A stretch of 61,035 nt of DNA from Secundilactobacillus hailunensis (lineage in GTDB: Bacteria; Bacillota; Bacilli; Lactobacillales; Lactobacillaceae): NCBI RefSeq assembly GCF_005405185.1, contig NZ_BJDO01000010.1, forward strand, positions 1-61,035, given 5' to 3'. Positions 2,852-6,137 of this stretch are shown in pieces. A model generated the notes under the pieces. It had not been told where the DNA came from. It saw only the letters and a list, made by a program, of their open reading frames with translations, and did no database searches. The position numbers and the translations under genes are program-made. The first letter of the stretch is position 1; every line of letters begins with the position of its first letter.

Positions 2852-3207
2852 AAAAAAGCCGCCCCCCAATATCGTTATCAGGAGAACAGCTTCCGTATCT
2901 AAACCGGTCGCAAACTGCGCGACCCTTTCGTACCTGTAGAAGGTTATCGACCAATTTTTCGTAAATCTTGGATCTTAACCGCTGGGGTTCGTACTCTTGT
3001 CGGCTCGAGGGTTACCACCGAATACCGATTCCATCTCCTGTTACTCGATGCCTCAATTCTCATTTTAGCAGCCTAGCAAGGAAACAGCCTATTACCCATT
3101 TGACTCTACGCAAAGTTCGATTGGTCTAGCAACACTAAGCATCGAACTCTTGTTGCTTCACAGCAACGATACTACTTTCAAAACTAATTGGTCTTATCTA
3201 ACCTTCC
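2852..3207 (-). ncRNA. Candidate structured non-coding RNA, about 355 nt
   Basis: No reading frame occupies this stretch, yet the minus strand looks like a complete RNA gene. A promoter precedes it, and the predicted 5' end (GGAAGGTTAGATAAGACCAATT) pairs with bases about 240 nt downstream: 3199-3206 with 2939-2946 and 3186-3193 with 2949-2956, 16 bp in all. Inside are hairpins GTTGCT/AGCAAC (3152-3167) and AGTTCGAT/ATCGAACT (3114-3148). A GGTCGC/GCGACC hairpin lies 3' of the closing helix. The 3' end is a ten-pair stem (2858-2867 with 2881-2890) followed by six U. The conserved cores of RNase P RNA, tmRNA and SRP RNA as I know them are absent. I do not recognise the family. Confidence 0.7.
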
Positions 3208-3213
3208 AACATT

Positions 3214-3242
3214 ATAATACCTGATAATGTAACCGATTACAA
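3214..3242 (-). promoter_or_regulatory. Promoter of the candidate structured RNA
   Basis: On the minus strand TTGTAA (3242-3237) and TATTAT (3219-3214) are separated by 17 bp. The predicted start near 3207 coincides with the first base of the RNA's closing helix, which supports both calls. Confidence 0.65.
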
Positions 3243-3276: not shown

Positions 3277-4731
3277 CTACAAAATTGGTGACAATAACCG
3301 GCAAAAGCTTTGCTTAAATCGCAGGTATAAAGACTGCTTATCAAACGCCTCAGCTGTGATCAACCGGCTGCCGCGCTGGTCCGCTTCAAATAATGCCGCT
3401 AATTGAGCCACTAATTTTTCATCGTAGAGAAAGGCATTCACTTCAAAGTTTAGTTTAAAACTGCGGCAATCCATATTAGCGGACCCCACTGAGGCTAGCC
3501 GATCATCCACGACCATGGTTTTCGCATGCATGAATCCCTGTTCATAGTAGTAAATTTTGACGCCATCTTTAGCCAGTTCATGTGCATAGTATTGCGTGGC
3601 GCGATACACAAAGGGATGATCCGGCATATGGGGGATCATAATGCGGACGTCCACTCCTGCCATCACTGCAATTCTAATGGCATCCATAACGCTATCATCT
3701 GGAATCAAGTACGGCGTTTGAATCCAGACCCGCCGCTTAGCCGTTTGAATTAATTTAATGTACCCCATTTTGATCTGCTGCAAGTCAGAATCCGGTCCGC
3801 TACTGACGATCTGCATATTGGTATCGCCTTTAACGTGAGCTAACGGAAAATAACGAGCTACCACGTGATCGGCCGGTAAGAGTCCCTTAGAAGCCGTCGC
3901 GTTCCAATCCAAAATAAACCGGCCCTGCAGCCCAAATACTGCAGAACCAGTCACCCGTAAATGAGTGTCCCGCCAATAGCCGAATTTTTTATGCCGCCCC
4001 AAGTACTGATCACCAATGTTAAACCCGCCAACGTAACCGATCCTACCATCAACCACAACGATTTTACGGTGATCCCGAAAGTTCAACCGAAAATCAGTTA
4101 GCGCTGAACGGGTCAAAAACGGTTCCGCATAACCGCCAGCCCTAATTAAGGGTTTAAAAAACGAGTGAAATGCACCGAATGAACCAAAGGGGTCATAGAT
4201 TACCCGGACTTCTACACCAGAACGTGCTTTACGCACCAGCAGATCACGAATCTGTTTGCCAATATTATCATTATAAAAGGAGTAAAACTCAACGTGAATA
4301 CTATCCTGCGCCCGTTCCATATCTTCAATCATGGCGTGAAACAGCTGCTTGCCATTCGCAATAATACGCACCCGGTTCTTCCGGGCTAAAAAGGCCTGGT
4401 TAGCGGTTTGAAACATCGTGACCAATGATTTAACGGAATCCGATGCCTCATCCGCCGGCAGACTTTCACTGCCTAATGCTTTGCGCTGTTTAGCCAGCAA
4501 TTCGTTAAACTGAAGCTGAACGTCACTCTTTGCCTTAAACAGTTTATCTTTGGGTAATTGACGGCCGAGAAAAGCATAGATCAAGAACCCGATTACCGGC
4601 AGTAGAAAAAGCACCAGTAACCAGGCCCAAATCGCTACAATGTCGCGTCGCTGTCTAAAGATAATGATAATTGCTAAAATAATATTGATGAGATAAATGC
4701 CTTCACCAATCATTGTCATGGTAATTTCCAT
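3277..4731 (-). CDS. cls: Cardiolipin synthase
   Basis: The enzyme joins two phosphatidylglycerol molecules into cardiolipin at the membrane. The 484-residue protein has two N-terminal membrane helices (about 6-28 and 33-55) followed by two phospholipase-D catalytic motifs, HRKIVVVDG within the first half and HAKTMVVDD near residue 400. This is the usual layout and length for bacterial Cls. The ATG follows a GAGGGAGA ribosome-binding sequence. The gene is monocistronic; the promoter of the candidate RNA begins about 35 bp beyond its stop. Confidence 0.95.
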   Translation of the reverse strand: MEITMTMIGEGIYLINIILAIIIIFRQRRDIVAIWAWLLVLFLLPVIGFLIYAFLGRQLPKDKLFKAKSDVQLQFNELLAKQRKALGSESLPADEASDSVKSLVTMFQTANQAFLARKNRVRIIANGKQLFHAMIEDMERAQDSIHVEFYSFYNDNIGKQIRDLLVRKARSGVEVRVIYDPFGSFGAFHSFFKPLIRAGGYAEPFLTRSALTDFRLNFRDHRKIVVVDGRIGYVGGFNIGDQYLGRHKKFGYWRDTHLRVTGSAVFGLQGRFILDWNATASKGLLPADHVVARYFPLAHVKGDTNMQIVSSGPDSDLQQIKMGYIKLIQTAKRRVWIQTPYLIPDDSVMDAIRIAVMAGVDVRIMIPHMPDHPFVYRATQYYAHELAKDGVKIYYYEQGFMHAKTMVVDDRLASVGSANMDCRSFKLNFEVNAFLYDEKLVAQLAALFEADQRGSRLITAEAFDKQSLYLRFKQSFCRLLSPIL

Positions 4732-5030: not shown

Positions 5031-6137
5031 CTAATAAACCGTTGTTGAAAGCAAGACTTCTGGACTATGGTTACACAATAAGTAACCATGACCAGTTGAA
5101 TCAAAAGTCAGCCCTTCAGTTTCACGCTTAGGGGTTAGTCCTGACCATTCAAATGAACTATTCGTTAGTGAGCCATGCCCATTTAATTTATTGGCTGGAA
5201 AACTAGCAATCGAATCATCCGAAATTAAATACAGTCGACCACGTTTGGCATTATAACCCATACTTTGAATGTGGGTCCCTGGCTGATGTTTTAGAACTTG
5301 ATCTGTTCTCCTAAAAATAACGTGGTGCGTGGAAATGTTTCCCTTATAGATATTCGCACCATTGCCCGGGTTACTCCAAAAATAAGCACTGCCATATTTA
5401 TCAAAGGTTAACGTGTGCCCGCCATGAATGAAGCCATGAGAAACTAAGTGGAAGCTGATTGCCCGATCAGGTTTCAAAGTTGCTGTACTAATATGTTGAA
5501 TATAGCCGCCGGTAGAAGTTGGCGCGCCTGATTTAGTTTCATTATCCCGCCACATATAAAGGGCGTGACTCTTCAAATTATAGGCCAAAGATTGACCGTG
5601 ACCGGTATCAAACATACCACCGACTTTAACAGCGCGTTGAACATCCTTTTGTTTATCTGAATACTTACCATGCTTTTTAATATACGCCGACTGCAGCAAC
5701 TTGGGTTCTTTAGTAACACCCAATTGCGTGAGTCGTTTCATATCCAGCCGAATGATCCGCCCTTCGTTTCTGGTGTTAGTTGGGCAATAAACGATGTACA
5801 TATAGCCGCTCTTAGAAACTGCTATCGATTGCGGATTACCCCAATGCTGATTATCCTTACCGGGATATGGTAGTAGAAAGTGCGTCTTGAACGTCACTTT
5901 TTTCCCGCTGACCGCTTTTACTTCATTAAACTGACTAGTCGCTTTCATATGAGTATAGTTTTTGGGTACTTTTACATATTTAACGTTCGAATTATTGAGC
6001 GTCCGGGCTCGTGATGGGTGGTTAATTAACGCCGTAGACCGCTGGTTATAGACCTTAACTGAGGCATTTGCTGTAACCGCTTGTCCCAAAACAAAACAAG
6101 TTACACAACTCATCACCCCTAAAATAAACCGTTTCAA
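5031..6137 (-). CDS. Secreted protein of unknown function, paralogue 1
   Basis: The 368-residue product has a signal peptide (residues 1-25, ending VTANA) and no membrane or wall anchor, so it should be released. A paralogue of 367 residues lies at 10038-11141. Shared segments recur along the chain: NPQSIAV/NPQAIAF, YIVYCP, VKVGG, TGHGQ, LYMWRDN, LTFD, RLYLISDDSIASFPA and KRETEGLTFD. The recurring glycine and aromatic strand segments (GGHTLTFDKYG, SMGYNAKRGRLYLISD) suggest a beta-propeller-like fold; this is inference. No catalytic motif is recognised. Confidence 0.7.
   Translation of the reverse strand: MKRFILGVMSCVTCFVLGQAVTANASVKVYNQRSTALINHPSRARTLNNSNVKYVKVPKNYTHMKATSQFNEVKAVSGKKVTFKTHFLLPYPGKDNQHWGNPQSIAVSKSGYMYIVYCPTNTRNEGRIIRLDMKRLTQLGVTKEPKLLQSAYIKKHGKYSDKQKDVQRAVKVGGMFDTGHGQSLAYNLKSHALYMWRDNETKSGAPTSTGGYIQHISTATLKPDRAISFHLVSHGFIHGGHTLTFDKYGSAYFWSNPGNGANIYKGNISTHHVIFRRTDQVLKHQPGTHIQSMGYNAKRGRLYLISDDSIASFPANKLNGHGSLTNSSFEWSGLTPKRETEGLTFDSTGHGYLLCNHSPEVLLSTTVY

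Follow-up and report, generated by a model that had tools for sequence, protein, structure and literature searches.

In lactic acid bacteria, 6S RNA (RF00013) shows conserved synteny and, in about one third of the species, carries cre boxes over the -35 region (PMC8414754). RsaI of Staphylococcus aureus is a free-standing RNA of 144 nt with a CcpA-type promoter control, and it is CcpA-repressed (PMC8334554). OLE, ROOL and GOLLD are long, many-armed RNAs whose function is unknown or partly known; one ROOL RNA has 659 nt, while many GOLLD RNAs exceed 800 nt (PMC12286853).

We describe here a predicted RNA of about 356 nt from Secundilactobacillus hailunensis, encoded in a stretch of 61,035 nucleotides (contig NZ_BJDO01000010.1), which is called the window throughout. 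It is like 6S RNA in its cre box over the -35 region and its conserved neighbour, and differs from it in fold and locus. It is like RsaI in being free-standing with a probable CcpA-type promoter control, and differs in its length and in reaching no Rfam family at cut-off. The likeness to OLE, ROOL and GOLLD lies in the many arms and in ends that we take to be tied by a long-range helix in those classes as they are here; the difference is that this RNA gives no Rfam match and is chromosomal, beside cls. Type B RNase P RNA (RF00011) is of similar length, but the genome copy lies elsewhere. No description of this RNA was found in the open-access literature searched, and the main text of PMC11109978 does not contain 'lactobacill'. 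It is uncommon for a large structured RNA supported by covariation to belong to no known family, and such RNAs often give no clue to function; this one offers a testable clue, a conserved cre box, in bacteria of food and feed.

A structured RNA gene downstream of cls

An earlier note, made from the letters of the window, had proposed that a structured RNA of no recognised kind, with a promoter and a terminator of its own, lies beside cls, and the comparative evidence given below supports this. The features of the locus are as follows.

2852..3207, minus strand: structured RNA gene with a predicted transcript of about 356 nt; present in 13 of the 15 genomes of the genus, with covariation and no Rfam family at cut-off
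3237..3242, minus strand: -35 hexamer TTGTAA; all 13 species have TTG at this position
3214..3219, minus strand: -10 hexamer TATTAT; same position, with variants, in all 13 species
3228..3241, minus strand: cre-like operator TGTAATCGGTTACA; at -34 to -21, overlapping the -35 hexamer
2852..2894, minus strand: terminator hairpin and T run; 8 of 18 pairs changed on both sides (helix 15), and found by the terminator scan
3277..4731, minus strand: cls, a cardiolipin synthase-type phospholipase D protein; upstream neighbour, with Pfam PLDc_2 and PLDc

The two hexamers (3242-3237 and 3219-3214) are separated by 17 nt on the minus strand, as had been claimed. Position 3207, six bases past the -10, opens the closing helix, in agreement with a predicted start on the first base of a long-range helix. 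We also found the ten-pair stem followed by six U that had been read as the terminator: six T end it, and the inner 10-pair stem is the part scored by the terminator scan. In the RNAalifold consensus the terminator has ten outer and eight inner pairs, and the outermost pairs draw on the T run.

Within 2.8 kb there were 7 promoter-like sites (5.4 expected) and 4 terminator-like sites (3.2 expected). Since these counts are near chance, such matches by themselves are no proof, and the comparison with relatives carries the case. The gene boundaries rest on conservation and the secondary structure on covariation, and transcription of the RNA is inferred. The conserved block counts for a free-standing RNA because its ends match promoter and terminator. 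We are nearly certain that a free-standing structured RNA gene is present at 2852-3207 on the minus strand.

Conservation within the genus

A DNA search found the RNA in 13 of the 15 genomes of Secundilactobacillus, the window's own included, where absence would have counted against the proposal. In three of them (G002, G004 and G009) the match covered pieces of 36-54 nt only, and the whole RNAs were then aligned. An exact 21-base pattern returned 12 named records, every one Secundilactobacillus. Eight near relatives are 0.82-0.97 identical to the window over the RNA, and identity drops to 0.11-0.80 in the 200 nt that follow; S. folii has a longer spacer, by which its cls value in that comparison is misaligned. 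The gene length ranges from 330 to 458 nt across the genus loci.

The cls stop lies 69 nt before +1 in the window, and the C-terminal motif and stop of cls were seen 46-152 nt ahead of the first base of the RNA in all 13 species (the draft of S. similis has a break in the cls frame, further upstream). The gene downstream of the RNA varies among loci. Near the RNA, only cls and, behind it, a gene like the one at 5031-6137 of the window persist (10 of the 12 named loci; the other two are incomplete).

The two genus genomes from which the RNA is absent, G005 and G008, have an ordinary-looking terminator, as judged by eye, directly 3' of cls. In a cls tree these two join genus g16, at a support of 92/72 that is below the threshold of the tool, and fall outside the clade of the 11 sampled RNA bearers (100/99). 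As the RNA is missing there and has, in searches under strict filters, no confirmed match beyond the two genera described here, it is not generally essential.

Consensus fold and covariation

We observed that the minus strand folds with an energy z of -2.81, none of 100 shuffles being equally low, as against -0.58 for the plus strand (28 of 100 shuffles equally low). The elements of the consensus are listed here; g14 is the second genus, treated below.

3199..3207, minus strand: P1, 5' strand; pairs with 2938-2946, nearly invariant and so showing no covariation within the genus
2938..2946, minus strand: P1, 3' strand; from the consensus fold and the covariation run
3187..3193, minus strand: P2, 5' strand GACCAAU; pairs with 2949-2955, nearly invariant, g14 counterpart GACUAAUCA/UGAUUGGUC
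2949..2955, minus strand: P2, 3' strand AUUGGUC; from the consensus fold and the 3'-end comparison with g14
3152..3167, minus strand: P3 hairpin; from the consensus folds
3114..3148, minus strand: P4 arm with UAGACCA motif; P3 and P4 together have 8 of 18 pairs changed on both sides, all 13 species
2983..3098, minus strand: P5 long arm, apical hairpin 3005-3056; helices 6-12 of the covariation run
2906..2924, minus strand: P6 hairpin 3' of the closing helix; from the consensus, no pair with both sides changed (helix 14)

P1 (9 bp), an internal loop and P2 (7 bp) form the closing helix, which encloses about 231 nt; a single-sequence fold makes P2 one pair longer than the consensus. The earlier note had described a 16-bp helix closing about 230 nt. 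The long-range helix at the start and the enclosed length were both recovered, and the 16 bp proved to be split as 9 + 7 around the loop. The internal hairpins that it mentioned were likewise seen.

The covariation check that had been suggested for the DNA downstream of cls in relatives was run with RNAalifold on 10 species. It gave 93 pairs, of which 25 had both sides changed with the pair kept in at least one species. Shuffled alignments gave 8.8 (sd 2.0), and 25 was reached by none of 500, in a test that favours the structure inasmuch as the 93 pairs were derived from the same alignment in which they were counted. When the partners were slid by 1-3 columns, only 2-7 covarying pairs were left. 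The alignment (A3), the model built on it (R1) and this main count cover 10 of the 13 species; similis, collinoides and paracollinoides, which carry insertions that take the alignment above 400 columns, were omitted, and P3 and P4 were counted on all 13. No double changes occur within the genus in P1, P2 or P6, and conservation is the sole support there for P1 and P2.

A loop-arm pseudoknot (A3 columns 121-125 with 167-171) was 96% paired with one double change; 114 of 500 shuffles did equally well, and it is not claimed. By eye, 10 of 13 species have two copies of GACCAAU in the RNA, one in P2 (3187-3193) and one in the P4 arm (3114-3148). Since the 3' strand of P2 could pair with either copy, a two-state fold is possible, with the second copy pairing with that strand as the alternative.

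The cre box

The operator TGTAATCGGTTACA is a perfect match to TGWNANCGNTNWCA, which we take as the cre consensus, and the only perfect match in the 61,035 bases. Shuffles of the 80-nt promoter gave a perfect cre in 0 of 20,000 cases and one within one mismatch in 64 of 20,000. Of the 13 species, 11 have a perfect box and 2 a box with a single mismatch, at a constant distance from the start. A noncoding gene with a conserved cre box in its promoter, as for a CcpA-controlled sRNA, is a finding for Secundilactobacillus only: the best site in g14 has one mismatch, in 1 of 20 RNAs. Since g14 has not conserved the box, control by sugar may be peculiar to Secundilactobacillus rather than central to what the RNA does. 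Judged from this site, CcpA quite likely controls the RNA in Secundilactobacillus. Because CcpA is known to repress at boxes that overlap promoters, its binding over the -35 hexamer would likely be inhibitory.

A probably related RNA in a second genus

The DNA 3' of cls was read in other genera and then in 24 genomes of g14, which is presumably Lentilactobacillus. In nine of these we saw an RNA of 160-180 nt that has a promoter and is closed by the helix GAAAGGU/ACCUUUC together with GACUAAUCA/UGAUUGGUC; a terminator follows further downstream. Model R2, built from those nine, matched 20 of the 24 g14 genomes and no others among 397 family genomes (E <= 0.01), and it finds nothing at the cls loci of the remaining four. 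The g14 core has 138-155 nt.

Of the 11 g14 genomes that were not seeds, 10 have the match on the same strand as the cls match and 670-784 nt beyond it; in the eleventh (G280) it is near the start of another contig. An open frame was seen by eye between cls and the RNA in those 10 genomes, and the g14 RNA keeps its own -10 just upstream. These observations indicated that the RNA is not simply a cls 3' UTR.

Covariation in g14 extended to 12 of 33 pairs (7.9 in shuffles, sd 1.3) and 50 cells (16.9 in shuffles), with 0 of 500 shuffles reaching either value; the alignment (A9, 20 rows, the nine seeds included) was fitted to R2, and so the count leans to the model. The number of pair types was not above the control (302/500).

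The two RNAs match at their 3' ends. For the final 60 nt we obtained a mean local score of 20.65 versus 14.34 in shuffles (sd 0.39; highest of 200, 15.47), with 15.4 in a reversed control; the score covers 7 of 13 Secundilactobacillus and 20 g14 rows, which are mutually related, and the spread is not to be read as a probability. At full length the score of 23.43 was not above all shuffles (mean 22.19; highest of 100, 23.49). One g14 locus (L138) and the window share ATTGGTCGAT-AACCTT, one inserted base apart. The same closing-stem sequence was found in the same place in both genera, with the RNA on the strand of cls and no more than 0.8 kb behind it in 13 of 13 Secundilactobacillus and 19 of 20 g14 genomes, the 20th being at a contig start. 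No one model recovers both: R2 matched 0 of 13 Secundilactobacillus RNAs at E <= 1, and R1 none of six g14 RNA loci (L083, L084, L108, L126, L127 and L128). Because place, strand and closing stem are shared, common descent of the two RNAs, with the body rebuilt, is likely on these comparisons. Secundilactobacillus and g14 are not sisters in the cls tree, which requires that the RNA was lost in some lineages or has moved. The earlier note, whose interpretation of the RNA is supported, had missed the cre box, the second genus and the variation in length.

Searches of the family and order under strict filters, by which weak matches to R1 and R2 can be lost, gave no confirmed match outside the two genera. 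R1 over 301 family genomes returned the 13 genus members and three weak others, all three inside ORFs. R2 over 395 order genomes returned 3 g14 genomes and a weak match in G460, which lies over an opposite-strand ORF. The 21-mer matched 14 of 301 genomes, namely 13 of the genus and G114 (2 mismatches), where the match reads by eye as protein-coding. The RNA had no blastn match among plasmid and phage records, and viral contigs had no exact 21-mer.

Some further sequences were seen after cls. Three of the four g14 loci without an R2 match (L084, L126 and L127) have a different-looking RNA with its own closing helix in the same place; in L084 and L127 that helix is GAAAGAUGA../UCAUCUUUC. L129 (genome G307) shows by eye a promoter, GAAGAAAG and CUUUUUCUUC ends and a short AU-rich interior, and is possibly a reduced form of the RNA. 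Short near-repeats (AAGTACC, TGTATCA) were noticed by eye between closing helix and terminator in L017 (about 1870-1960), L121 (3170-3400) and L123 (after 3171); a tandem repeat finder, run on L121 alone, gave one weak row. In L090 and L092, of genus g5, sequences resembling T-box leaders lie directly after cls, a likeness based on GGGTGGTACC, which we take to be a T-box leader motif.

Comparison with known RNA families

No Rfam family reached its cut-off at the locus with E-values up to 10 allowed; a hit to a known family was one of the two results that the earlier note had named as refuting it. The only match over the RNA was to the FAS-AS1 lncRNA model (3061-3214, 18.9 bits versus a cut-off of 55, E 6.9), which we regard as chance; the other five were microRNA models on the neighbouring palindrome, far below cut-off. 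Six other Secundilactobacillus and 13 g14 loci gave sub-cut-off matches only, none over the RNAs.

Neither RF00011 nor RF00013 matched the RNA. The RNase P RNA of the genome was found elsewhere (G000:C1:33535-33914, 332.3 bits). Its own 6S RNA is on another contig (50.8 bits, cut-off 46.4), between a rarA-like gene upstream and a uspA-like gene downstream. The consensus of the present RNA is multi-branched and not a rod with one central bubble.

OLE, ROOL and GOLLD, classes that Rfam contains, gave no match either. The ROOL and GOLLD context of phage or tRNA islands was not seen: the window has 0 tRNAs, and the phage and viral searches gave the results stated above. The likeness to large ornate RNAs drawn in the earlier note is therefore only general, the RNA being also smaller than the ROOL and GOLLD sizes cited at the outset.

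Proposed mechanism and alternatives

We propose that a sigma-A-type promoter would start the RNA on the first base of its closing helix and that the intrinsic terminator would end it. In Secundilactobacillus, CcpA and its co-factor HPr would occupy the cre box over the -35 and block the promoter as long as a preferred sugar is available. Once that sugar is spent, the RNA would accumulate, its ends tied by P1 and P2. It would then most likely act in trans on carbon adaptation, either through exposed loops (that of P3, the P4 internal loop and the P5 apical loop) that pair with mRNAs or through a fold that holds a protein. Action in trans is suggested by the promoter and terminator of its own. 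We read the RNA as one of a new family of free-standing RNA that CcpA probably represses until the preferred sugar is gone, for which the 6S RNAs and RsaI cited at the outset are precedents, and we hold it to be reasonably probable that the RNA of the window is a free-standing, CcpA-repressed noncoding RNA that acts in trans.

The other reading with appreciable weight is a structural RNA, that is, a scaffold or a protein- or ribosome-bound particle, OLE- or ROOL-like in manner, in which the closing helix holds together the ends of a compact fold and no mRNA is paired. The closing helix on the first base, the multi-branched fold, the terminator standing apart from it and the large changes in size around a constant closing stem (in the genus and down to the g14 core) are all consistent with this, but no such class is matched in Rfam and no candidate partner gene is seen, only cls and the 5031-6137-like gene staying near; we consider it rather doubtful. 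That the RNA is instead a cis element, either the 3' UTR of cls or a device for its processing or termination, would fit its position directly 3' of cls in 13 of 13 Secundilactobacillus species and the lack of a terminator-like site between the cls stop and +1 in the window. The conserved promoter and the frame that intervenes in 10 g14 genomes make this improbable, and among the cls loci that were read none outside the two genera shows this RNA by eye.

A cre box that overlaps the -35, as in the 6S RNAs cited at the outset, would also suit a diverged 6S paralogue that binds RNA polymerase. This we judge very improbable, given that RF00013 does not match, that the genome has its own 6S elsewhere with the usual 6S neighbours and that the fold is branched. 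An mRNA for a small protein has hardly any credit. It had been stated that no frame is open, which is too strong, since the RNA strand has a 39-aa ATG ORF (2944-3063) and the other strand a 53-aa TTG ORF (2968-3129). Five ORFs of at least 15 codons lie on the RNA strand, the best two of which (19 and 24 codons) stay open in 7 of 10 aligned species. None is kept in all 10, however; nine of the ten, the window itself being one of the ten, are at least 82% identical to it, which leaves the 7 of 10 weak, and the sequence changes preserve pairs.

We tentatively suggest a wider picture, a new class of catabolite-controlled RNA machine. Its closing stem (P1, loop, P2) would be constant, as would the place near cls, the promoter and the terminator, while the body would be rebuilt both between genera and inside one, with sizes that go from about 160 nt in g14, counted from stem to stem, up to about 460 nt for the whole gene of S. 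similis. That body may bind a protein or the ribosome and act when sugar runs out, under a CcpA control in Secundilactobacillus of the same kind as that of 6S elsewhere. If confirmed, the RNA of the window would join 6S as a further structured RNA controlled by CcpA in lactic acid bacteria, and would show that nearly the whole body of an RNA can be altered while its closing stem and its locus stay fixed.

A repeat beside the gene

Just downstream of the RNA, the window at 2615-2826 holds two direct 62-nt copies (84% alike) and a palindrome with 35-nt arms. Parts of this region match five other places on four other contigs, and similar hairpins were seen by eye 3' of the RNA in several other species. 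The element is probably a dispersed palindromic repeat.
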